In this document: piece after piece, positions 372 through 13,594 of the stretch
How positions within the stretch are numbered: position 1 is the stretch's first letter
Layout: every line of letters starts with the position of its first letter
NCBI GenBank assembly: GCA_012523265.1
Contig: JAAYIU010000071.1
Location: 1-40,190 of the forward strand
DNA length: 40,190 nt
Reading direction: 5' to 3'
Source of the DNA: Bacteroidales bacterium
GTDB taxonomy: Bacteria; Bacteroidota; Bacteroidia; Bacteroidales; 4484-276
Program-made: the position numbers and the translations under genes
Notes under the pieces: model-generated
What the model was told of the DNA's origin: nothing
Databases searched by the model: none
Seen by the model: the letters and a program-made list of their open reading frames with translations, nothing else

Positions 372-1565
372 TTAAAACTCGGCAAAGTCGAAGCTCAGGG
401 TAAAACGCAATGTGTTTTCCAGTGGGTTTTGCTGTTCCAGCGGTATCAGATACGAGAAGTCCAACCCGAACACATTGTATTTAAGTCCGGCTCCCAGGGT
501 GAAATATTTACGATTTCCTTTGTTTTTATTTTCATAAAAGAAACCACCGCGAACAGCAAAAACCTTGTTGTACCAATACTCTGCGCCGACGGAGAAATAA
601 AATTCGCGCAGCTCTTCTTCGAAGCCGCCGGGTGCGTCGTACCACGACTGGATCATGCCTTCCACAGGCCCCACATTGGGATCTCGTCCGGCTTCGATGA
701 CCCGTTGCCCGTCGATAATAATATAACCTGACGAATCCCTGGCATAGACCGGAGGGGTGGGAACGAGCAGCTTGTTAACATCAAACATAAACGACAGGCG
801 GTTGTAGTCGTCCAGATCGAGGGTAAGGCGCGGGCCGATGCGCAAGTTGGTAGGAATAAAATCTTTTTCGGTGGTAGCGTCAGAATAGGAGATTTTTGAT
901 CCGATATTGGAGATATTAATACCCAGAGCGAATTCGGCATATTCAAAGTTGCGCCAGTCGAGTTCGCGCTGATGATACACCGCAACGTCGGCTGCCACTG
1001 ACTGGCCGGGCTTGGTAGCCTGTCCGCCCACGCTCACGCCCTGTGTAAGGTTGGAGTGGATGTAACGGGCGGCAACAGCTCCCGACCAGGTTTCGGAGAA
1101 CTTACGGCTATAGGTAGCATCTACCGAGAATTCGTTAGGCCGGTAGTTACCGATAGCATAACCTTCGATGTTGGTAAACTGAATATCACCCAAAGTAAAG
1201 TAAAGCAGCGAAGCGGCAACCGTTTGCTTGTCGTCGATGCGGTAAAAGCCTGACACATACGCCAGGTTGATGTCGCTGACCAATGCGCGCAGCCACGGGC
1301 TGTACGATGCCGAGAAACCGGCTTTAGGTTCGATGAAAGCATATTTGGCAGGATTCCAGTGCATGGAGGCGGCATCGGGTGTGGAGGCAGCGCCAACATC
1401 GCCCATGGCACCCGAACGGGCATCAGAGGCTATCAGCAGAAATGGCACTGCCGTAGTGATGGTGTTGGTTTGCCCGAGATAATTGGGTTTTTCACTATCC
1501 TGCGACCAGGCCAGGTGTGTCAGCATCATACATGCAGTTACAACTGCAAGGGTTTTTTTAATCAT
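372..1565 (-). CDS. porV: PorV, type IX secretion system outer-membrane shuttle protein
   Basis: PorV (LptO) is the outer-membrane beta-barrel of the type IX secretion system (T9SS). It receives cargo from the SprA translocon and carries it to the PorU sortase. The 397-aa product has a signal peptide (MIKKTLAVVTACMMLTHLAWSQ), then the N-terminal segment typical of PorV (TAVPFLLIASDARSGAMGDVG, TPDAASMHWNPAK), alternating beta-barrel strands, and a C-terminus ending in aromatic/hydrophobic residues (LSFDFAEF). Length fits the family. It lies 91 nt downstream of a porU, the usual porU-porV arrangement, and is closed by the terminator at 296-328. ATG at 1565 gives a clean signal peptide. Identification is by recognised family features and context. 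Confidence 0.95.
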   Translation of the reverse strand: MIKKTLAVVTACMMLTHLAWSQDSEKPNYLGQTNTITTAVPFLLIASDARSGAMGDVGAASTPDAASMHWNPAKYAFIEPKAGFSASYSPWLRALVSDINLAYVSGFYRIDDKQTVAASLLYFTLGDIQFTNIEGYAIGNYRPNEFSVDATYSRKFSETWSGAVAARYIHSNLTQGVSVGGQATKPGQSVAADVAVYHQRELDWRNFEYAEFALGINISNIGSKISYSDATTEKDFIPTNLRIGPRLTLDLDDYNRLSFMFDVNKLLVPTPPVYARDSSGYIIIDGQRVIEAGRDPNVGPVEGMIQSWYDAPGGFEEELREFYFSVGAEYWYNKVFAVRGGFFYENKNKGNRKYFTLGAGLKYNVFGLDFSYLIPLEQQNPLENTLRFTLSFDFAEF

Positions 1566-1656
1566 AAAGATCGGATTTACTTTTGTTGAAATTATGAAGG
1601 TAAACGGACATTCATTTTTAATATTGTTTTAAGCCATTGGCCAGAAACCATCGGGA

Positions 1657-4600
1657 TTAATCTGTGATAATGAGTTTCTGCACCCGTTCGGTAAACTGAC
1701 CTTTGGCGTTGCCCACACGCATGCGATACAGGTACATGCCCGGCGCCAGCTTCTGGCCGCCATAGCTGGTGCCGTCCCAGAAAATGGGTTCCATAGCATA
1801 GCCGCTGGTGGAAATCGTGTGTGATTCGAGTGTTTGTACCAGCTTACCATAAAAATCGTAAACTTCTACAGTAGCCGTCAGGTCGCCTTCAAACTGATTG
1901 TGGCGGAAGGTGAACCACGTTTCGTTGCGAAACGGGTTGGGATAGTTAAAAACATCGAGCAGGCTGACGCTGATACTGTCTGAAACAAAAAACTCCAGGG
2001 TTTTCTCCGAAGAGTTGTTAAACATATCCCAGGCGCGCAGACGCAACGTGTGCACCCCGTTTGACAATGGGCCGAGCGGCAGGGCAATGCTTCCGCTGCT
2101 GTGGTCGTCAAGCTCGGGATCGAAAAGATGGTTGAGGATCATCGAGTGATAGCTGTTTCCATCGATGGTAAGCACAATGTCGTGGCCTATGCCGGCACCG
2201 GTAGCGTTTATGCCCGATGGGTCGGAAAGACGCGCCAGAAATAGTGGCTCAGGATTGATGGCCGTACCGGGTATAAAAGTGCTGTCGTTAAGAAACATTT
2301 TGATGTCGGGGCCTTCATTATCGACCTGTGTGCTTTGTGGTGTGCCGCCCACCACCAGTCCCGAAAAGTAACCACTGGCATCGCGGGTGCTATCGATGGC
2401 ATAATAGCTCAGCTTTCCGTAGCCAAAATTATAGTCGATGTCGCGCGGGAGCATGAAGGTGTAGCTGAACCTGCCGTTTTTAACGCTTGCTTTTCCCTGG
2501 CAAAGGATGTTGTTTTGTAATTCAAAAGTATAAGGATAGCTTTCGGAGGCAGCGCCGAGTGTGGTTACCTGTTCAGGTTTGTCGTAAAGCACCGGGTATA
2601 TGGTTCCGTGAAAATCGCTAAGCATAACTCCCGGCATATTGTGCTGCTGAATGTGTCCGCTAATGGTGATGGTGCTGTTGGCGCTCAGCGTATCTTTAAA
2701 ATGAATAGCCGGCTGTCCGTTGATGGAATCGGTGATGATGTCGTGTTGTGGCAAGGCAAGCCTGAGGGCAGGATCGCCGAGCAGTGCAAAATTTAAGAGG
2801 CTGGTGCTGGTGGGCAGTTTTGATTTCATAATCAAATCGCCAAAGCGAAGGCTATTGGTACCTTGTACTGTAAAAAGTGTGTCGTAAACGCGCTGGTTGA
2901 GAACCAGGTTCACGCTGGCAAAAGCAACGCGTGTAGTTGTTAGCAGTGCGATACCGCCGCCATGCGGATTGAGCAGCACCAGCTCGCCGGCGGAGGTGAG
3001 TGCAGGATTATCATAACGACTAAACTCACAGGTAGCTGTTATTACCAGTGGCAGCCGGTCGTAGTTTTTCCAGGAGAGGATGTCGCTGATCTCTACCACA
3101 CTTTCGTGCGTAAGGCCGGTTTCGCCGCCGTGGCCGGTATAATTTACGATCAAAGCGCCTTCCTGCATCTGATCGTTAAAGGCTCTGTTGGCCTGCGGGA
3201 AAGTATTTCCGTTGGCAGTGCTTTCGAGCGGATAGGCATCGATATAAATTTTGTTGATGTTCACATCGCGGTTTTTGCGCCTGATGTCGCGCACCAGAAT
3301 CGTATCGGCCTGAAACAGGTGCAGGTTGAAATTGCCGTCGTCGGCCATAAAGCACATTTGCTTGCGCCAGGCGCCCTGGTTTCGGCTGGAAAGACGCATA
3401 TAGCGTTCTACTTTATCCACCATATCGTTAGCCTGTTGGGGGGTAACCACCGGAAATCTTCCGATACCCAGATCGATACTTCCCACCGATTCCTGACCCT
3501 CGCCGGCATCCATCATACCAAAAAAGTCGTCGGTGACAAAAGAGCCGGCATACCAATGCGAATTTTTGGCTTCAAAAGTGGGAACCATATTATGATTTTC
3601 ACCAGCGCGGTTTTTGAGATCGTAAGAAGCATCGCCAAAGAGCAACAAATACTTGAGCTTGGGCGCTGCCGGCGAGCGGTAATAAATCATGCGCACAAAA
3701 TCACGGATGGCTGACGGATCGGCTATTCCCGAACCAAACTCATTATAAATCTGGTCGGTAGTCACCACATGCACAGCCATATCATCCACCTCCTGGTGAA
3801 GTACTTTGAGCCGCTGGGCCTGCGCCAAAAAAAGCGGATGCGTAATAATGATAAAATCAGCGGCGCCAAGCTGATGCAGATTTTGATTTTCGACAGAACC
3901 CATCAATAGTGGTGAACGGTAATCGTTGGCGGTAAAGCCTACAAATTCGTTAATGGTATCGGATTTAATGATGAATTTGCATGCATCATTTTCAAAGGTG
4001 GTGTTCATCTGATAGGGTAGCAATGGGTTGTTGATATTCCAAACCTTAAGATTCGTTTCAGCATTGGCAATTACATATTGGCTAACACGATTGGGAAGTA
4101 CCTGCTGGCGATTTCTGAATGAGAAAAATTTACCATCATAAACCAAATGACTTACCACATTTACGGTAACGTAATTGAGCCATCCTGTCGAAAAATTGTC
4201 AGGTCTTAGATAGGTGATGTTAATGGTTACATCGGGGGTATCGTTAATTTTCAACCAGCGCGCTTTATTAGAAACGTTGGCATATTTGGTGACCGAATTC
4301 AACATAACATAACTCACCCTGTCGTAATACATTGAATCGCCGTTTGCACTGATTACAAACTGACTTGTCGATGCCGAGCGGGCGGCGAAGTCGGTGCTGA
4401 TGTGTGTGTTGGCGCTTACGTCGCGGTGCGGGAAAGGGAAGAAGAAGTCGTAGCTCAGCTGTTCGCTAAAGGTTTCGCCGTACCATTCGCGACCCGAACG
4501 AATAAGGTTGATGGAGTCGATTTCGTGCGTGGCATAATCGTCGTAGGTGGTTACAATATTTTCGGCTGTAAGCGTCTGTTGTGGCTGCATCTGGAGGCGC

Positions 4601-5496
4601 TTTCCGTCGATGGCTGAGGTATTAATAAAATAAAAGGCGGTATCCGAGTACTTATTCAGCGAAAATTCGTAAGCCTGCTTTATGTTGCTGTACTTCCATT
4701 GGTGTGGCGACTGGCCATAAAAGACGAAGTAGTCGCCGGCATCGAAAGAGCCATCGCCACCGTCGAACATTTCGATGGCATTTTCCTGCAGGTCGTCGTA
4801 GCGGAAGTCGTCGTTGGCCTGTGGCAACATGCCACCACCATTGCCATACACAGCAATAGCCGAAGAGGGGATGCTGCCCTGTGCCCCCAACTGCTGCAAA
4901 TGCTCCCAGGTAAGCTTGTAAATACCATCGGTGAGCAGGCCGATCTTAAACCACGTTCCGGCAGCCAGCACCGAGTTGTCGGCATAGTTAGGAATGGAAT
5001 CCCGCTTTACGCGGATATTCGCTTCGAAAGGCGATACTTCCCAGGAAAGCTCGAAGGAGATTATCTTTTCGAAATTGCCGGAGACGGCATTAAAGCGCAG
5101 CGGCATCAACCGGAAGATGGTGTGCCGCTCGCCCCGCGTCACGGCAATCTGCTCCGAATATTGTGGCGCGTCAGTGATCAGTTGTGCGTCTTCAATCAAA
5201 CGCATGTCGGCAGCTACGGTAGCCCATTTTACATTTTTTAATTCAAAACTAAGGCGCTCCGTATTTTCGTTCATCGGAATGCGCCGCGTAAAAACGGGCA
5301 GCAAGCCATAGGCATCCACGAAAGTGGCATCATCGAAATTCAGCACCAGCTCTGTCGATTCTTTTGCAGAAGCATCCCACGGCGCCGGAGCATTCCATTG
5401 CAGGATGTGATGCTCAGCAGAAACAGCCTGGCCAAAGAGATCAAAAGCTGCCGTGATGAGTAGCAGCAGCAGCAAGGGTTTATAAATATTCTTCAT
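1657..5496 (-). CDS. porU: PorU, type IX secretion C-terminal signal peptidase/sortase (copy 1, next to porV)
   Basis: PorU is a gingipain-type (peptidase C25) cysteine protease on the cell surface. It removes the C-terminal domain of T9SS cargo and attaches the cargo to A-LPS. This 1279-aa copy has a signal peptide (~1-22), an N-terminal beta-rich region, a C25 catalytic domain (about residues 548-912) and a C-terminal T9SS-type domain beginning near residue 1182 (NYPNPF...). Catalytic His789 sits in NYTGHGG and Cys823 in ITATCEF, a 34-residue spacing. It starts 56 nt after the stop of a second complete porU and is followed by porV. A possible -7 box just upstream suggests it can be transcribed separately. 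It is clearly PorU family; which of the two copies is the ancestral orthologue cannot be told from the window, although adjacency to porV favours this one. Confidence 0.93.
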   Translation of the reverse strand: MKNIYKPLLLLLLITAAFDLFGQAVSAEHHILQWNAPAPWDASAKESTELVLNFDDATFVDAYGLLPVFTRRIPMNENTERLSFELKNVKWATVAADMRLIEDAQLITDAPQYSEQIAVTRGERHTIFRLMPLRFNAVSGNFEKIISFELSWEVSPFEANIRVKRDSIPNYADNSVLAAGTWFKIGLLTDGIYKLTWEHLQQLGAQGSIPSSAIAVYGNGGGMLPQANDDFRYDDLQENAIEMFDGGDGSFDAGDYFVFYGQSPHQWKYSNIKQAYEFSLNKYSDTAFYFINTSAIDGKRLQMQPQQTLTAENIVTTYDDYATHEIDSINLIRSGREWYGETFSEQLSYDFFFPFPHRDVSANTHISTDFAARSASTSQFVISANGDSMYYDRVSYVMLNSVTKYANVSNKARWLKINDTPDVTINITYLRPDNFSTGWLNYVTVNVVSHLVYDGKFFSFRNRQQVLPNRVSQYVIANAETNLKVWNINNPLLPYQMNTTFENDACKFIIKSDTINEFVGFTANDYRSPLLMGSVENQNLHQLGAADFIIITHPLFLAQAQRLKVLHQEVDDMAVHVVTTDQIYNEFGSGIADPSAIRDFVRMIYYRSPAAPKLKYLLLFGDASYDLKNRAGENHNMVPTFEAKNSHWYAGSFVTDDFFGMMDAGEGQESVGSIDLGIGRFPVVTPQQANDMVDKVERYMRLSSRNQGAWRKQMCFMADDGNFNLHLFQADTILVRDIRRKNRDVNINKIYIDAYPLESTANGNTFPQANRAFNDQMQEGALIVNYTGHGGETGLTHESVVEISDILSWKNYDRLPLVITATCEFSRYDNPALTSAGELVLLNPHGGGIALLTTTRVAFASVNLVLNQRVYDTLFTVQGTNSLRFGDLIMKSKLPTSTSLLNFALLGDPALRLALPQHDIITDSINGQPAIHFKDTLSANSTITISGHIQQHNMPGVMLSDFHGTIYPVLYDKPEQVTTLGAASESYPYTFELQNNILCQGKASVKNGRFSYTFMLPRDIDYNFGYGKLSYYAIDSTRDASGYFSGLVVGGTPQSTQVDNEGPDIKMFLNDSTFIPGTAINPEPLFLARLSDPSGINATGAGIGHDIVLTIDGNSYHSMILNHLFDPELDDHSSGSIALPLGPLSNGVHTLRLRAWDMFNNSSEKTLEFFVSDSISVSLLDVFNYPNPFRNETWFTFRHNQFEGDLTATVEVYDFYGKLVQTLESHTISTSGYAMEPIFWDGTSYGGQKLAPGMYLYRMRVGNAKGQFTERVQKLIITD

Positions 5497-5531
5497 AATA
5501 TCTTTACGGAATTATCAGCAGTTTTATTTAT

Positions 5532-5539
5532 CAAAAATA
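5532..5539 (-). promoter_or_regulatory. Possible -7 box for the downstream porU
   Basis: The minus strand reads TATTTTTG, a match to TAnnTTTG, 36 nt before the porU copy 1 start, in the 56-nt gap between the paralogues. It could let the second copy be expressed apart from the first. No convincing -33 element is seen. Confidence 0.4.
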
Positions 5540-5552
5540 ATTTCTTAAAAAA

Positions 5553-8500
5553 TTAGCGTGCAATTACAAGCTTACTTACCGCAGAGGTAGTGCGTCCGAT
5601 TTCATCTCTAATCTGAACCCTGTACACATACACGCCGCCGCCCAGACTTCGGCCACTGTCGGTGGTGCCATCCCAACGAATAGGCTCAGCATAGAAACCG
5701 CTGCTCAGGTTGTTTTGTTGCAAGGTGGTCAACAACCGGCCGCTAAGATCGTAAATTTCTATTTTCACTTCTGTAAGCTCGTTGGCCTTATTGTGATTGT
5801 ATTTGAACCAGGTTTCGGTGGCAAAAGGATTTGGATAGCTGTAGATTTTATCAATAATGATCTGATCGCCACCTACTACAACAAATTTGAGCGATGCTTC
5901 GGAAGAGTTATTAAAAACATCCCACACCCTAAAAGTAACCATATGCTCTCCCGGCTCCAGGTTGCGAAAGGGAAAGCGCACGTAGCCGCTGGTATACCCT
6001 TTGGCATCCGACTCGTAATAGTCGTTTAGGTTATAGGGTCTTTCGGTATTTCCATCCAGCACGGCAGTAATATCGTGGCCAATGCTGTTGCCCACAGTGT
6101 TGATGCCGCTGTGGTCGAAGACATGCGCCAGCAGCACAGGGTTTTCGTTGGTAAAGTCGCCCCAGCGGAAGGTGGTGTCGTTCATATAAAGTTCTACCTC
6201 CGGCCCCTCTTTATCGGCAAGGGTGTTTTCGTCGAACCCGCCGACGATCAGATTAAAGTCATAACCATTGGCCGTTTTCACGCCGTCTTCGGCAAAATAA
6301 CTGATTTTACCCTGCCCATAATTGTAGGCTATGTCGATGGGAACCATAAATCTGAAAGAGAAAACGCCGTCCGTCACCTCGGTTTGTCCTTTATAAATTA
6401 CATTTTTGCGCAGCTTGAAAGTGCGCACCTGGCTCGACGAATCCTGACCCAGTGTACTTTCCACCGATTCTTTGTCATAAACAATGGCTTTTAATATCCC
6501 GTTAAAATCAGATTGAACGGCACCCGTGTTATCGGTAACCACGCCTTCGATTTTTACATTCGACAATGCATTGATTGTATCGGCCACTTGTCCGGTTTCT
6601 GCAAAAGTGATAGCGGTGGTGTGCACCTCGTAATCAGGATAGGCAATTTTCAGCGCGGGATCGCCAATCAGCAGAAACTTCAAGCCGTTGCCCAGTGTAT
6701 TGCTCTCGCGTTTGGCCAAACGGATAAGATCGCCCATAGCGTAATAGGCGCTGTTATTTTTAGAGAACATTTTTTGGTAAATCTTTTCGTTGAGCGTGTA
6801 GTTGGAACCGGCATAAGTGGCACGCGCCGTAGTAAACAGGGCTATTCCGCCGCCTTTGGGATTCAGGAAAACATACTCGCCTGCCGAGGTGCGCCCGGGG
6901 TCGTCATAGCGGGCAAACTCACAGGTAGCGGTGATAAACACAGCCATCTTATCGTAGTTTTTCCAGCTATTAATATCTCCGTTTTGCAGAACGCGCTCAT
7001 GTGCCCAGCCCACTTCGCCCCCGTGGCCGGTGTAATTCATAACGAGTGTACCTTTTTCGATGCGGTTGTTGATGGCCTCATTTACATCGGGATAACGCTG
7101 CCCGCCGGCAGTAGTCTGCTGCGGGTAGGCATCGAGATAAATCTTGTCGGTGTTGTATTGCGGATAGTAGTTCTCGATAAGTTTTGCCAGGTCGTCGGCC
7201 TGATTGGTGTGCAGATTGCCTTCTTCGTCGTCGCCGACAAATGTTAACACATTGCGCCAGTCGTCCATGCACTTGCGGCTGGTGGCATAATGCATTACCT
7301 TGTCCACACTTCGCTTGGCTTCTTCAGGCGTGGCTACCACAAAGCGTCCGATGCCGATATCTACCAAATCTCTTTCGCTCACACTTTCGTTGGGATCGAG
7401 AAACCCGAAATAGTCGTCGGTAGCAAAGGAGGCGATATACGAAATGGAGTTGACCGATTCGTAGGTCGGGACAAAGTTGGTGTTGTTTTGCAGGCGGTCT
7501 TTGTAGTCGTAGGAAGCATCACCAAAAAGCAGCAGATAGCTTGGCATCACCTCGCCATTGCCGGCGCGGGTATAAAACATGCGCATCATCTCTTTGATGG
7601 CTGTAATATCCTGCGCTCCCGACGAAAATTCGTTGTACACTGCCTGTGGCGTAGTGACCATTACCGTCAGGTTAGAAAAATCGCGGTGGAAATCGGCCAG
7701 GCGGTCGGCCTGCTCCAGAAAGTCGGGATGTGAAACGATGACGTAGTCGATGTTGCGCTGCGCGTGCAGGTTTTGGTTGGTAATAGTTCCGGCGGCTTCA
7801 GCCGTTAGAAACTGGCTGCCGTCGAAAGCCATAAATTCGCGGATCACGGGAGTTTCGAGCTTGAAGCGCAGCGTGTTATTTTGCGCTGTGGTTTGCACCT
7901 GATGCGCGTCGGTGGGTGATGTTACCTCCCACACAGTAATGCCGGAGCCTGCATTCCCGAGTACAAATTGAGTAATGTCTCCTTCCCCAAATGTGTCTGT
8001 ATTTCTAAAATCCATTTGCGCCCCGCTGAAAACCAGATTGCGCACCACGTTCAGTTCGATGTAGTCGAGCCAGCCAATGGAGCTGCTCACGGATTTGTTG
8101 TATTTGAGGCCGACGTTAACATCGCTGTCCGAAATCTCCAGCCGTCTTGTAATGGTATTGTCTTTGGCATAATCGCCTTGTGACGTTTCGGGAGCACCCT
8201 GTATGGGTATGGTTGCAACATTGTCGCCATTCATCGAAACTGTAAATGATGAAGAGACTACTGATTTCGCCACAGCTCTTATCATCAAGGTGTGTTGCGC
8301 TGAGGTAACAATATTGGGAAACGAAAAAGCAAAGTTGTGGGTTGTCTGCACGTCAAAGACCTCGCCCAGCCACTGGCGACCGGTTTTATAAATGCTCAGA
8401 TTGTCCCGCTCATGAAACTTGTGATCGGCAAAAGTAGTGGCCTCGTGTGTAGCGGCCTGGGTAGCCTGCGGCAGCATAGCGATGCGTTTTCCTTCGCCGG

Positions 8501-9365
8501 CTTTTATGGTAATAAAATAATAGGTGTGATCGGAATAAATGTTTTGCTGATGATCAAATTTCAACGCGCTGGGATTGTACTTCCAGGCGTGCGGCGACTG
8601 GCCATAAAACAGGAAATAGTCGCCCGGATCGAAACGGCCGTCGCCGCCATCCATCATTTGAATAGCGTTTTCTATCAGGTCGTCGGGGCGATATTCGCTG
8701 TTGGCTTCGGGCAGCATGCCGCCGCCATTGCCGTAAAGGCGCACTGTGGCCGAACTCACGCCGGAAAGATTCATCCCCATTTGCGCAAGCTGCTCATAGG
8801 TAACTTTGTAAATGCCGGTTTCCTGCACACTTATCCTGAACCACTCGCCACTGGCCAACACCGAGTTGGCGGCGTACTCCTTGGCGGCTGTTGTATTTTT
8901 TAATCCCTCCTTGGGCGTCAGCTCCAAATCGAACGCCACCAGTTTTTCGTATTTCCCGCTAAGCATGTTCAGCCTGAAGGGGAGCAGATGCACCATGGCA
9001 ACCGATACACCACGTGCACCGGCAATGTGGCTTTGCGGCTCGATGGCCGGCGTTATCATCAAAAGATTATCTATCAGCATCAGCTCGTCAGAAGTCAAAG
9101 GCAGGTATTCGGCATTGAGCAGTTTGGCTTCCACCGAGGTTGCTGCATTCTCCAGGGGCATCGCGATTGAAAACAGTGGCAGATTTGCGGATTGGCTTCC
9201 ATAGTCAGCACCGGTAAAAAATAAACGCGAAACTACAGGCGCCTCGGGGGTGGCCTGTTGATGTATGGTATGCCACTGGAGCTGGTAATGTTGCACCAGC
9301 TCGCCGGCCGATGCCACGGCTGAAACCAACACCAGAAAAACTGTAAAAAAGTGACGATTGATCAT
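5553..9365 (-). CDS. porU: PorU-family type IX secretion sortase (copy 2, upstream paralogue)
   Basis: A second full-length PorU homologue, 1270 aa, with the same layout as its neighbour: signal peptide (~1-20), N-terminal beta region, gingipain-like C25 domain (about 540-900), linker, and a T9SS-type C-terminal domain from about residue 1175 (SYPNPFATETW). The catalytic pair is intact (His781 in NYTGHGG, Cys815 in ITATCEF) with the same 34-residue spacing as copy 1, and many motifs are shared (GNGGGMLPEAN, DGGDGRFDPGDYFLFYGQSPH, FLNPKGGGIALFTT). It is therefore a tandem duplicate rather than a decayed copy. It is the first gene of the leftward row and diverges from the porP-like gene. It may be a redundant sortase, or one with different cargo or linkage chemistry; that is inference. 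Confidence 0.92.
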   Translation of the reverse strand: MINRHFFTVFLVLVSAVASAGELVQHYQLQWHTIHQQATPEAPVVSRLFFTGADYGSQSANLPLFSIAMPLENAATSVEAKLLNAEYLPLTSDELMLIDNLLMITPAIEPQSHIAGARGVSVAMVHLLPFRLNMLSGKYEKLVAFDLELTPKEGLKNTTAAKEYAANSVLASGEWFRISVQETGIYKVTYEQLAQMGMNLSGVSSATVRLYGNGGGMLPEANSEYRPDDLIENAIQMMDGGDGRFDPGDYFLFYGQSPHAWKYNPSALKFDHQQNIYSDHTYYFITIKAGEGKRIAMLPQATQAATHEATTFADHKFHERDNLSIYKTGRQWLGEVFDVQTTHNFAFSFPNIVTSAQHTLMIRAVAKSVVSSSFTVSMNGDNVATIPIQGAPETSQGDYAKDNTITRRLEISDSDVNVGLKYNKSVSSSIGWLDYIELNVVRNLVFSGAQMDFRNTDTFGEGDITQFVLGNAGSGITVWEVTSPTDAHQVQTTAQNNTLRFKLETPVIREFMAFDGSQFLTAEAAGTITNQNLHAQRNIDYVIVSHPDFLEQADRLADFHRDFSNLTVMVTTPQAVYNEFSSGAQDITAIKEMMRMFYTRAGNGEVMPSYLLLFGDASYDYKDRLQNNTNFVPTYESVNSISYIASFATDDYFGFLDPNESVSERDLVDIGIGRFVVATPEEAKRSVDKVMHYATSRKCMDDWRNVLTFVGDDEEGNLHTNQADDLAKLIENYYPQYNTDKIYLDAYPQQTTAGGQRYPDVNEAINNRIEKGTLVMNYTGHGGEVGWAHERVLQNGDINSWKNYDKMAVFITATCEFARYDDPGRTSAGEYVFLNPKGGGIALFTTARATYAGSNYTLNEKIYQKMFSKNNSAYYAMGDLIRLAKRESNTLGNGLKFLLIGDPALKIAYPDYEVHTTAITFAETGQVADTINALSNVKIEGVVTDNTGAVQSDFNGILKAIVYDKESVESTLGQDSSSQVRTFKLRKNVIYKGQTEVTDGVFSFRFMVPIDIAYNYGQGKISYFAEDGVKTANGYDFNLIVGGFDENTLADKEGPEVELYMNDTTFRWGDFTNENPVLLAHVFDHSGINTVGNSIGHDITAVLDGNTERPYNLNDYYESDAKGYTSGYVRFPFRNLEPGEHMVTFRVWDVFNNSSEASLKFVVVGGDQIIIDKIYSYPNPFATETWFKYNHNKANELTEVKIEIYDLSGRLLTTLQQNNLSSGFYAEPIRWDGTTDSGRSLGGGVYVYRVQIRDEIGRTTSAVSKLVIAR

Positions 9366-9540
9366 AAGATTATTATTTTATTAATAAAAGAGCCAACAAC
9401 ATGAGACAGACTATTGTTTATGGGAGCTTTACTGCCAATGCTGCTGACTATTGCCCGGTAACTACCTGTAATTAACACTTTGAAAAACGAAACTTTCGGG
9501 GCAATATTGCCGTTTTTTCCGTTTGCGTTCTTGCTGCGCT

Positions 9541-9548
9541 TATATTTG
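9541..9548 (+). promoter_or_regulatory. -7 promoter box for porP/sprF-like gene
   Basis: TATATTTG matches TAnnTTTG exactly. A TTTG lies upstream at 9522-9525, though that spacing is shorter than usual. It would give a leader of about 90 nt before the porP-like ATG and serves the rightward side of the divergent T9SS locus. Confidence 0.55.
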
Positions 9549-9647
9549 CACGCTGAACGCATCAGAAGGATTGTTGTTAAAATATCCCGAAAAATAAAGA
9601 GTTAATAATCAAGTGAAAGGTTGCGTAACATCTCCGGAATGGTCATC

Positions 9648-10646
9648 ATGAAAAAGCTCCAAAAGCTTTCTGTCCTGCTGTTATTAATTGTTCTGGCTGC
9701 TACTATGCAGGCTCAGGATTACACCTATTCACAGTTTTATGCCAATCCGGTTTACCTCAACCCTGCCCTTGCCGGCTCCGCCTATTGCCCGCGCATTACG
9801 CTCAACTACCGCAACCAGTGGCCGCAGTTGCCGGCGTCGTTTGTTTCGTACAGCGCTGCCTACGACCAGCATGTCGATTTTATCTCCGGCGGCGTGGGCG
9901 TGCAGTTTCAATACGATAAAAGCGGCCAGGCAGCTATCCGTCAGTTTCGCCTTGGCGGGATGTATGCTTACCGGCTCGACATCGCCGAGCGGTGGCAGGC
10001 AAGCATGGCCCTCGAAGCGGCCTTTGGCCAACGGGGCGTCAGTTGGGACGACCTCGTTTTTGCTTCACGCATCGACCCGGCAAGCGGCAACCTGCTCCCA
10101 TCGGGGCCTCCCCCCGACAACTTTCGCGACAACGTCAACTACGCAGATTTTGCAGCCGGCTTTGTGGTAGGTTTTGATGAGAAAATTTTTCTGGGTGGCG
10201 CCGTGCATCATCTCACCACGCCTGACGTAGGCTTCATTAGCGAAAGCGACAACAAGCTGCCGATGAAAATTACGGTACACGCCGGGGCAAATATCGAAAG
10301 TGGCGGCCGCCGCAGCTACCGGAGCCGCGGGCCGGAACTAACCATTTCGCCCAATATTCTGTATCAGCAGCAAGGCGACTTCCGTCAGCTCAATATTGGC
10401 ACCTATTTTACGTTTGCACCTTTTGTTGGCGGCCTTTGGTATCGCCATGCGTTCGAAAATGCCGATGCCGTCATCGTACTGCTGGGATTACAATACAACA
10501 ATCTGAAGTTCGGTTACAGTTTCGACTACACTGTCTCCACACTGGCTATAGCCAGTGGTGGAGCACACGAAATATCTGTCGGCTGGCTTTTTGATTGCGA
10601 CAAAAAAAGTAACCGTTCCAGAGCAATAAAGTGTCCATCGTTTTAG
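9648..10646 (+). CDS. PorP/SprF-family type IX secretion membrane protein
   Basis: An outer-membrane beta-barrel protein of the PorP/SprF family, part of or associated with the T9SS. Starting at MKKLQKLSVLLLL the product is 332 aa with a signal peptide ending at AATMQAQD. It is followed by the family hallmark QFYANPVYLNPALAGS and a series of amphipathic strands (GGVGVQFQYDKSG, GGLWYRHAF, KFGYSFDYTVS, ISVGWLF). The ORF track begins at an upstream TTG; the ATG at 9648 (or 9639) gives a standard signal peptide. It probably forms an operon with gldJ about 30 nt downstream. Bacteroidetes usually have several PorP/SprF paralogues. Because this one is not next to porKLMN in the window, it may not be the core PorP, so no symbol is given. 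Confidence 0.88.
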   Translation: MKKLQKLSVLLLLIVLAATMQAQDYTYSQFYANPVYLNPALAGSAYCPRITLNYRNQWPQLPASFVSYSAAYDQHVDFISGGVGVQFQYDKSGQAAIRQFRLGGMYAYRLDIAERWQASMALEAAFGQRGVSWDDLVFASRIDPASGNLLPSGPPPDNFRDNVNYADFAAGFVVGFDEKIFLGGAVHHLTTPDVGFISESDNKLPMKITVHAGANIESGGRRSYRSRGPELTISPNILYQQQGDFRQLNIGTYFTFAPFVGGLWYRHAFENADAVIVLLGLQYNNLKFGYSFDYTVSTLAIASGGAHEISVGWLFDCDKKSNRSRAIKCPSF

Positions 10647-10676
10647 TTAATTAAACCTATTTGCAAAAAAATCTTA

Positions 10677-12173
10677 ATGATGATAATCAAAAATCAGCAA
10701 ATTATAAGCCTGATAACCGTTGTGGCGTTAGCGTTCACGCTCTCTTCGTGCAGCGGAATCTTTGGATCGAAAAAGAAAACTTCGGCTACCACCGGATGGG
10801 ATTACAACAGTAGCACCAACGGAGGCTTTGCTGTTTCGGATATCAACGAACAGGAAACCGGCCCCGGATTGGTTTTCGTAGAAGGCGGCACCTTTGTTAT
10901 GGGACAAATGGGTGAAGACCCGATGTACGAAAATTCCGCTCCCGCACGCCGCGTCACGGTTCGTTCGTTTTATATGGACGAAACAGAGGTTACCAATCTC
11001 GATTATCTGGAATACCTCTACTGGCTAAGCAGGGTTTTCGGCGCTGATTATCCGGAGGTTTACCGCAAAGCGCTACCCGACACATTGGTGTGGCGCTCAC
11101 GGCTGGCTTACAACGAACCGTTGGCCAACCTTTATCTGCGTCATCCGGCCTACCACGATTATCCTGTGGTTGGCGTTACCTGGGTGCAGGCCACAGATTA
11201 CTGCCAGTGGCGTAGCGATCGTGTAAACGAGCTGTTGCTCATCAAAGCCGGCGTATTAGCCGAAGACCCGGACCAACGCAATGAAAATAGTTTCAATACC
11301 GAGGCTTACCTGGCGGGACAATATACCGGCTTGGTAAATAAGCCTATCGAAGACCTGGATCCCAGCAGCACCGGCGGGCGTAATGCACGCCTGGAAGACG
11401 GCATTATGCTTCCCAACTACCGGCTGCCCACCGAAGCCGAATGGGAATATGCTGCCTTAGGACTTTATGGCGACAATGAGCTTATCACCGAACGCCGCAT
11501 CTATCCGTGGGACGGTCATCTGGTGCGCAGTACCGGCGGCAAAAAAGAATATGGCAACTACATGGCCAACTTCAAACGTGCACGCGGCGACTACATGGGC
11601 GTTGCCGGAAGCCTCAACGATGGCGCCGACATCACAGCGCCGGTGGGCACCTATCCGGCCAACGACTTTGGCTTGTACAATATGGCCGGCAACGTTTCGG
11701 AGTGGGTGCAGGATGTCTATCGTAGCCTTAGCCACGAAGATGTTGCCGACTTCAGCCCGTTCAGAGGAAATATCTTTACCACCCCCGTGCTCGACGCCGA
11801 AGGCAACATCGCCGAAAAAGACAGCCTCGGACGAATCCGCTATCGCGAAATAACCATTAACGAAGCGCAGGACAGGTTTAACTACCGCGAAGCCGACAAC
11901 GTAAACTATCTCGACGGCGACAACCGCTCGGTGAACGATCCCGGCAAATGGCTCGACGACGTGAACAACGCCAACTCAACCAACCTGATGTACGACTACA
12001 AAAGCAGCAGCCTGATCAACGACCAGGCCCGCGTTTACAAAGGCGGCTCCTGGAAAGATGGCCCCTACTACCTCAGCCCGGGCGTGCGCAGATATCTCGA
12101 CCAAAACAAAGCCACCGATTATCTCGGATTCCGCTGCGCCATGGATCGCGTAGGGACTTCCGTGAAATTTTAA
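10677..12173 (+). CDS. gldJ: GldJ, gliding motility/T9SS lipoprotein with FGE-sulfatase fold
   Basis: An outer-membrane lipoprotein of 498 aa. The signal ends in the lipobox TLSSC (Cys25), followed by the GldJ-type lead-in TGWDYNSSTNGGF and a formylglycine-generating-enzyme (SUMF1-like) domain: GPGLVFVEGGTFVMG, FYMDETEVTNLDYLEYL, LRHPAYHDYPVVGVTWVQA, YRLPTEAEWEYAA, NMAGNVSEW, RVYKGGSWKDG, LGFRCAM. GldJ is required for gliding and secretion in Flavobacterium and stabilises GldK; GldK/PorK is a paralogue, so that is the main alternative. The long MDETEVTN...DTLVWR...YNEP...HPAY block and the position beside porU argue for GldJ. It follows the porP-like gene and ends at a strong terminator. Confidence 0.87.
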   Translation: MMIIKNQQIISLITVVALAFTLSSCSGIFGSKKKTSATTGWDYNSSTNGGFAVSDINEQETGPGLVFVEGGTFVMGQMGEDPMYENSAPARRVTVRSFYMDETEVTNLDYLEYLYWLSRVFGADYPEVYRKALPDTLVWRSRLAYNEPLANLYLRHPAYHDYPVVGVTWVQATDYCQWRSDRVNELLLIKAGVLAEDPDQRNENSFNTEAYLAGQYTGLVNKPIEDLDPSSTGGRNARLEDGIMLPNYRLPTEAEWEYAALGLYGDNELITERRIYPWDGHLVRSTGGKKEYGNYMANFKRARGDYMGVAGSLNDGADITAPVGTYPANDFGLYNMAGNVSEWVQDVYRSLSHEDVADFSPFRGNIFTTPVLDAEGNIAEKDSLGRIRYREITINEAQDRFNYREADNVNYLDGDNRSVNDPGKWLDDVNNANSTNLMYDYKSSSLINDQARVYKGGSWKDGPYYLSPGVRRYLDQNKATDYLGFRCAMDRVGTSVKF

Positions 12174-12211
12174 AAAATAACGCCGCTTTAGGCGGAGATC
12201 AAAAATTAGAT

Positions 12212-12256
12212 AAACGCTGTATCTGTTTTCACAAAAAACGATACAGCGTTTTTTTT
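12212..12256 (+). terminator. Intrinsic terminator after gldJ
   Basis: A perfect 12-bp stem (AAACGCTGTATC with GATACAGCGTTT) with a 16-nt loop is followed by TTTTT. It closes the porP-gldJ transcript. Its T-run overlaps the possible promoter of murF. Confidence 0.92.
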
Positions 12257-12280
12257 GTCTGCTTTTTTTCGATTATTTTG
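12254..12280 (+). promoter_or_regulatory. Possible murF promoter overlapping the terminator T-run
   Basis: TTTG at 12254-12257 and TATTTTG at 12274-12280 (one base short of TAnnTTTG) lie about 16 nt apart, 19 nt before the murF ATG. The match is imperfect, but it is the only candidate between the terminator and murF. Confidence 0.35.
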
Positions 12281-12298
12281 CCATCACAATAGCAACCT

Positions 12299-13594
12299 AT
12301 GACGACAAAAGAACTTTACGAAATTTATAACCGACACCCGCAAATCACCACCGACTCACGAAACATTGCTGCCGGCAGCATATTCTTTGCCCTGAAAGGT
12401 GATAGTTTCGACGGGAATCGCTTTGCTCTGGCTGCACTGCGCGAAGGCGCCGCGTGGGCAGTGGTGGACGATGCCGGCCTGGAAAATCATCAAAAAATAA
12501 TTCTGGTGAATGATGTGTTGGAATCATTGCAACAACTGGCGCAACATCACCGCAGGCAGCTCTGCATTCCCGTTATCGGTATTACAGGCAGCAATGGCAA
12601 AACCGCCACCAAGGAGCTTATCAGCCAGGCGTTGCTGACAAAGTATAAAACTACGGCTACCCGTGGCAATCTCAACAACCACATCGGTGTGCCGCTTTCT
12701 ATTCTTTCGATTACTAATGATGTTGAAATAGCAGTGATAGAAATGGGCGCCAACCACCAGGGAGAAATCGCATCGCTGTGCCGCATCGCCCGTCCCGATT
12801 ACGGCATCATCACCAATATCGGGCGCGCCCACCTCGAAGGCTTTGGTGGCTATGCCGGTGTAATAAAGGCCAAAACGGAGCTGTACGATTTTATCCGTGA
12901 AAATGGCGGGCATCTTTTCGTTCATCACGACGATGCTTTATTGATGGAAAAATCTGCCGGCATCCCGCGCACCACTTATGGCGCTTTGCCTGCCGCTGAC
13001 GTTCAGGGATTCATCACCGAAAAATTCCCCGTACTGGCACTGCAACTTGCGCATCCCGCTAAGGGAACCACCATCAACACCCAACTGGCCGGCAGCTACA
13101 ACTTCCCCAATGTGATGGCCGCCGTTGCCATTGCACGCTATTTCGGCGCCGACCTGCATGCTGTAGCCAGGGCTTTGCGAAATTACCAGCCTGCAAACAA
13201 TCGCTCGCAATGGCAAACCACATCCCAAAACAAACTGCTTATCGACCTCTACAACGCCAACCCCGGAAGCATGGCTGCGGCAATCGAAAACTTTGCCCAA
13301 GCGCCTTACGGCAATAAAATGCTCATCCTGGGCGATATGCTGGAGCTGGGCGCCGAAAGCTATGCCGAACATGCCACCATCATTAGGATGGCGCAAGATG
13401 CTGATTTTGAAAAAGTGATTTTGGTAGGAAAACACTTTTTAGCTTTCGCTGATGAAGCCTCCACGAAATTCTTGCTTTTTGTAAATGCCGATGCAGCCCG
13501 TAAAGCTATTCATGAAATGAATTTAAAAAACAAAACAATTCTGCTGAAAGGCTCGCGGGGTATCCGGCTCGAAAAAATATTGGATATTTTATAA
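12299..13594 (+). CDS. murF: UDP-N-acetylmuramoyl-tripeptide--D-alanyl-D-alanine ligase
   Basis: MurF adds D-Ala-D-Ala to UDP-MurNAc-tripeptide, the last cytoplasmic step in making the peptidoglycan precursor. The 431-aa product has the Mur-ligase order: an N-terminal substrate domain with TTDSRNIAAGSIFFALKG, an ATP-binding loop GITGSNGKTATKE (about 94-106), central-domain motifs IEMGANHQGEI and ITNIGRAHLEGFGG, and a C-terminal domain with YNANPGSM, LGDMLELG and LLKGSRG. Length is normal for Bacteroidetes MurF. It sits between gldJ and anmK; the gldJ terminator implies its own promoter. Placing wall synthesis beside the secretion genes may be simple synteny. Confidence 0.96.
   Translation: MTTKELYEIYNRHPQITTDSRNIAAGSIFFALKGDSFDGNRFALAALREGAAWAVVDDAGLENHQKIILVNDVLESLQQLAQHHRRQLCIPVIGITGSNGKTATKELISQALLTKYKTTATRGNLNNHIGVPLSILSITNDVEIAVIEMGANHQGEIASLCRIARPDYGIITNIGRAHLEGFGGYAGVIKAKTELYDFIRENGGHLFVHHDDALLMEKSAGIPRTTYGALPAADVQGFITEKFPVLALQLAHPAKGTTINTQLAGSYNFPNVMAAVAIARYFGADLHAVARALRNYQPANNRSQWQTTSQNKLLIDLYNANPGSMAAAIENFAQAPYGNKMLILGDMLELGAESYAEHATIIRMAQDADFEKVILVGKHFLAFADEASTKFLLFVNADAARKAIHEMNLKNKTILLKGSRGIRLEKILDIL

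Follow-up and report, generated by a model that had tools for sequence, protein, structure and literature searches.

Why should a bacterium keep two genes for the T9SS sortase PorU side by side, just upstream of the gene for PorV? This question is raised by a contig of a Bacteroidales bacterium (GenBank assembly GCA_012523265.1, contig JAAYIU010000071.1), of which the whole stretch of 40,190 nucleotides that was analysed is called the window. In P. gingivalis, cargo is brought by PorV to a complex of PorQ, PorU and PorZ, where PorU cleaves the C-terminal domain (CTD) and then transfers the cargo to A-LPS or releases it (PMC10202324). PorU of P. gingivalis is T9SS cargo itself and retains its own CTD, and it forms latent dimers in which one monomer is inhibited by a hairpin of its partner (PMC10202324; PDB 6za2). 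How PorU chooses between attachment and release is stated as unsolved (PMC10202324).

Results

The gene pair and its surroundings

On the minus strand, the order of transcription is porUa, a gap of 56 nt, porUb, a gap of 91 nt and porV (Table 1). The two porU genes thus lie head-to-tail, and porV is followed by the beginning of a gene resembling ispF (YgbB), while a divergent PorP/SprF-family gene and gldJ are located upstream of porUa. An earlier note on this DNA had described two intact, full-length PorU sortases ahead of porV, which was confirmed by the open reading frames and by two family models. Both frames are open at the coordinates in Table 1, and both proteins begin with a hydrophobic leader and are complete in sequence. 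The model NF033707 ('T9SS sortase PorU') covered them from end to end with 1355 bits for PorUa and 1242 bits for PorUb, about three times its equivalog cut-off of 420 bits. Peptidase_C25 (PF01364) matched with 362 and 343 bits, respectively, and the model of the long-form N-terminus with 46 and 49.8 bits (cut-off 40). By these scores, both copies are PorU at the equivalog level and their family membership is clear. The two proteins are 40% identical over their whole length, and hence are not an assembly duplicate.

Table 1. Features of the porU-porV locus in the window (coordinates in nucleotides; codons are given on the same scale).
Feature	Position	Strand	Description
porUa	5553..9365	-	Upstream copy of the PorU sortase (1270 aa); long form, with an N-terminal extension
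porUb	1657..5496	-	Copy of the PorU sortase adjoining porV (1279 aa); long form
porV	372..1565	-	T9SS outer-membrane shuttle protein, 397 aa; NF033710 497 bits (cut-off 250), PF19572 227 bits
TATTTTTG, promoter -7-like element (TAnnTTTG)	5532..5539	-	Between porUa and porUb (56-nt gap), 35 nt ahead of the ATG of porUb
PorUa catalytic domain	6648..7745	-	PF01364 placement; His781 codon 7023-7025, Cys815 codon 6921-6923
PorUb catalytic domain	2758..3855	-	PF01364 placement; His789 codon 3130-3132, Cys823 codon 3028-3030
PorUa T9SS C-terminal domain, residues 1177-1253	5607..5837	-	TIGR04183 28.4 bits (cut-off 23), FlgD_ig 28 bits
PorUb T9SS C-terminal domain, residues 1185-1272	1681..1944	-	TIGR04183 22.3 bits (just under the cut-off of 23)

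The gene of P. gingivalis PorU (PG0026) adjoins porV as well, as porUb does in the window. The proteins share a gingipain-type Cys/His domain, Ig-like domains, a latency hairpin region and a T9SS CTD with this enzyme (6za2). In contrast to the window, P. gingivalis is described with one PorU, which has a shorter N-terminus without the long-form extension and is 27-28% identical to the window copies in structural alignment. The gingipains RgpB and Kgp (C25; PDB 1cvr, 4rbm) have the catalytic fold in common with PorU, but differ in being secreted proteases and T9SS cargo. The genome of the window (G000) contains eleven more C25 (gingipain-type) matches that are not PorU, on contigs C36, C414, C392, C60, C115 and C411; on C36, one frame includes an in-frame TAG, and on C414 a gene is divided between two frames.

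Another known second PorU-like protein beside a PorV-like barrel is the NCBIfam pair PorU2/PorV2 (NF052324/NF052325). PorU2 is a separate, divergent and longer family (~1670 aa), and membership of the window copies was rejected (143 and 184 bits vs a cut-off of 450). PorU2 occurs in some of the genomes studied here: in locus L219 (G038, contig C33, 1381-7471), a single-PorU genome, the genes of PorV2 and PorU2 (1672 aa) adjoin.

Active sites, domains and predicted structures

The His/Cys pair that had been noticed in both copies is indeed present at an equal spacing of 34 residues (His781/Cys815 in PorUa, His789/Cys823 in PorUb). In an alignment of 189 PorU proteins, this dyad was kept in all 187 rows that cover the site, for both copies; hence, no sampled sequence of either copy looks inactive. 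The T9SS-type CTD reported earlier was likewise found in both proteins by the model of the T9SS type A tail (TIGR04183; Table 1), and the NF033707 match reached the C-terminal end of PorUb despite its score just below the cut-off.

The sole full-length relative with a solved structure is P. gingivalis PorU 6za2 (PorUa, E = 6e-168; PorUb, E = 9e-157). AlphaFold models of PorUa (residues 76-1270, pLDDT 88.8) and PorUb (residues 81-1279, pLDDT 87.3) also had 6za2 as their best PDB match in Foldseek (E = 1.8e-89 and 2.7e-78, respectively). According to these models both copies have the overall PorU fold, with a TM score of 0.49-0.54 against 6za2 and a domain arrangement that is not alike.

Comparison of the PorUa and PorUb clades revealed two type-II sites that switch cleanly between them, T850/A858 and K896/N902, and no clear-cut specificity residues beyond these two. 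Because so few sites switch, there is no sequence signature of an altered cleavage specificity, and the near-absence of a fixed switch in the active site favours two active enzymes with overlapping chemistry. T850/A858 is inside the catalytic domain, where several positions are conserved in PorUa and free to vary in PorUb. These positions could fit a division by reaction, in which one copy would favour transpeptidation to lipopolysaccharide (anchoring) and the other hydrolysis and release to the medium; two active paralogues retained for a long time would supply the split between attachment and release that the literature leaves unsolved (PMC10202324). However, organisms with a single PorU perform both reactions with one enzyme, the fixed differences are few and there is one PorZ only, and we therefore regard such a division as unlikely.

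The latency hairpin region, with limits taken from the alignment and a review (PMC10202324), was ungapped and conserved in both copies (e.g., Thr971/979 in 98-100% and Gly993/1001 in 91-98% of the sequences). This conservation makes a PorUa-PorUb heterodimer possible, in which the hairpin of one copy would block the catalytic domain of the other, and the second copy would mainly time the activation of the first and protect its CTD. By analogy with the latent dimers of P. gingivalis PorU (PMC10202324; 6za2), the best match of both models to a chain of the latent dimer 6za2 and the adjoining position of the genes, usually less than 60 nt apart, would fit such an arrangement. Yet the hairpin region is equally conserved in single-copy PorU, so that homodimers suffice; moreover, PorUb can be lost while PorUa stays, and both copies have the full catalytic dyad, which a pure regulator would not need. 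A heterodimer thus seems improbable.

The N-terminal extension is missing from one copy in some relatives, with a short PorUb in six and a short PorUa in three or four of them, which suggests that the copies may drift apart.

Origin of the two copies

In a tree of 70 rows, all copies of the A and B kind formed one clade (support 100), within which PorUb (99) and PorUa (98) were each a clade; a careful tree of 21 rows agreed (B 100/99, A 93/91). A duplication confined to the family of the window was rejected by the AU test on the 21-row tree (p-AU 3.3e-6). An assembly duplicate or a recent copy was ruled out by the tree and the AU test together with the 40% identity.

Across the 50 genomes that have both copies, 37 of the 48 splits were common to the A and B clades, as compared to at most 3 at random, and PorUa and PorUb distances were correlated with r = 0.92. 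PorUb distances were a median 1.2 times those of PorUa, i.e., PorUb evolves about 1.2 times faster. The identity of PorUa to PorUb within a genome (37-48%) was about the same as between genomes, and in the window pair no sequence exchange or recent gene conversion between the copies was seen. The mirrored branching, the shared splits and the lack of exchange point to a single old duplication followed by vertical inheritance, which explains both the tree and the identities.

Tandem PorU pairs outside the A/B clade (L192, L193, L195, L197) grouped together, apart from A and B, which indicates that PorU has been duplicated repeatedly within Bacteroidia. L195 and L197 belong to two genomes of family f63, L194 and L196 contain more tandems of f63, and L193 belongs to G410. 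The separate tandems of L192-L197 come from outside the order, and further PorU pairs are dispersed. In locus L192 (G103, 1347-12814), which belongs to another family not of this order, three consecutive PorV-family genes flank a pair of PorU genes.

Occurrence of the tandem

The order porUa-porUb-porV recurred in all congeners and family members with a long enough contig, the loci of G001 and G002 being interrupted by contig ends. GTDB genomes scanned with the PorUa alignment, a search skewed towards the lineage of the window, yielded 79 loci, 40 of them with a tandem pair of long PorU genes. These 40 came almost entirely from uncultured Bacteroidales, including a Lentimicrobium sp., a member of the Lentimicrobiaceae and a 'Marinilabiliales' MAG. 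With regard to the check that the earlier note had proposed, the tandem is lineage-wide, occurring in congeners, the family and dozens of other Bacteroidales lineages. In locus L126 (7941-11864), the first PorU copy ends early and the CTD continues past the stop, which reflects either an assembly error or a disrupted gene.

Of 237 genomes sampled evenly across the order, 211 had PorU. Two hits were obtained in 59 table rows, or about a quarter of the PorU-bearing genomes, with at most two candidates scored per genome and some broken or split genes among the 59. Hence, two PorU copies are common outside the model organisms. A search of plasmids returned one single-copy PorU, in Parabacteroides. 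The earlier statement that model T9SS organisms are usually described with one PorU fits the literature that we found, but does not extend to these sampled Bacteroidales. No description of a tandem PorU was found in the open-licence papers searched. The stable set of two sortases departs from the described T9SS; both proteins themselves clearly belong to PorU.

Selection, loss and cargo

In comparison with congener G003, dN/dS (NG86) was 0.09 for porUa, 0.15 for porUb and 0.14 for porV. More distant pairs gave values of 0.06 to 0.22 for PorU, with synonymous sites saturated in several of them. Judged by these ratios, both copies are under purifying selection. Together with the wide occurrence of the tandem and the trees, this excludes a second copy confined to one strain under relaxed selection, as considered in the earlier note. 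A degenerate second copy was also ruled out, by the dyad in all covering rows and the porUb ratio of 0.15.

Five loci of the PorUa clade (L123, L125, L129, L147, L179) had a single PorU followed directly by porV, and whole-genome searches found that one clade-A PorU only in each of the five genomes. L129/L147 and L125/L179 are sister pairs, and the five loci therefore represent at least three losses of PorUb in the sampled lineages. No clear case of a lost PorUa with PorUb kept was present among the sampled loci, where apparent cases coincided with contig ends; three losses against none are too few for a statistical claim.

The five genomes that lost PorUb contained 14-44 T9SS type A tails, whereas the tandem genomes tested contained 53, 96 or at least 116, a link drawn from three losses and from MAGs for which no completeness is stated. 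The many tails in tandem genomes and the few in loss genomes would agree with a dosage effect, in which two interchangeable enzymes provide more sortase for a large cargo load, and so would the small number of diagnostic differences between A and B. In contrast to typical dosage pairs, however, the copies share no more than 37-48% identity and evolved separately without homogenisation. Furthermore, many single-PorU genomes outside the A/B clade likewise had at least 116 tail domains; hence, the pair is not accounted for by the number of cargo proteins alone, and a large cargo set needs no second sortase. We consider it doubtful that dosage explains the pair.

Intergenic regions

The gap between porUa and porUb had a median of about 32 nt over 58 loci, usually less than 60 nt, which is operon-like. 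The 8-nt element TATTTTTG in the gap of the window (Table 1) is conserved in congener G003 and agrees with TAnnTTTG, the -7 consensus of the Bacteroidetes housekeeping sigma factor (PMC7366714). This motif was present in 16 of the 44 A-B gaps of related loci, whereas mononucleotide shuffles predict 1.7. Among the 99 porU-porV gaps, 69 had it as compared to a predicted 5.3, in these mostly at 20-37 nt upstream of the ATG. By eye, the porU-porV gap of the window itself had no exact match. These frequencies suggest that porV may commonly have a promoter of its own, as may porUb in some of the lineages, that of the window among them. The promoter that had been suspected between the two copies therefore stands as a sequence motif, which the congener has as well.

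Partner components

In the genomes checked, we found one strong PorV, one PorQ and one PorZ above the family cut-offs, a few of them having extra weak PorV-family members or split hits; in the genome of the window, each of the three genes occurred once at cut-off. As far as these family searches reach, the duplication is one of the sortase alone in the genomes checked, and a duplication of the whole attachment complex is ruled out there. A second anchoring machinery, as might go with the use of different anchors suggested earlier, is not supported by these single components.

A conserved unit of two genes, for a large protein and a barrel, was observed on contig C272 of G000 (L212: 1626-6020 and 6065-7132, plus strand). 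The large protein (1410-1500 aa) has a weakly PorZ-like C-terminus and matched no Pfam family above cut-off, and the barrel belongs to the PorV/PorQ family but, by cut-off, is not PorV, PorQ or PorV2. The large protein occurred in 97 of the 237 genomes of the order, 47 of which belong to the 59 two-hit PorU genomes, and a third barrel was not found in the five genomes that lost PorUb. This unit is possibly a further T9SS surface module.

Discussion

We lean towards a reading in which both PorU are active on one delivery path (single PorV and PorZ), with PorUa as the general enzyme and PorUb as an auxiliary one for partly different cargo or timing. The arrangement porUa-porUb-porV goes back to an ancient PorU duplication that much of the Bacteroidales has retained. 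According to our reading, both proteins would reach the surface by way of the T9SS and be retained there by C-terminal domains of their own that are not cleaved off, and both would act as C-terminal signal peptidase/transpeptidase on the cargo delivered by the single PorV, together with the single PorZ. PorUa would be the constrained enzyme, and the faster-evolving PorUb would serve part of the large cargo set or certain conditions. The porUb gene would be expressed from the same operon and, in some lineages, also from its own promoter. The analysis establishes that both copies are PorU with intact active sites, that they share an ancestor, have long been retained together and are under purifying selection, that the partner components are single and that PorUb alone was lost; the activity of both enzymes and a division of cargo or timing between them we infer.

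More tentatively, PorUa and PorUb may have had fixed different jobs in much of the Bacteroidales since the old duplication, such as separate cargo classes, anchoring vs release, or mutual latency, while sharing one PorV-PorQ-PorZ set; such pairs may have arisen independently in other Bacteroidia.

PorU has been treated as the single enzyme that decides on cutting, anchoring or release of T9SS cargo, a choice whose basis, according to a review (PMC10202324), is not known. The PorU copy number of the model organisms is unrepresentative, and a natural PorU pair that has long been kept, and that has re-evolved elsewhere, offers a comparative handle on the choice between anchoring and release.
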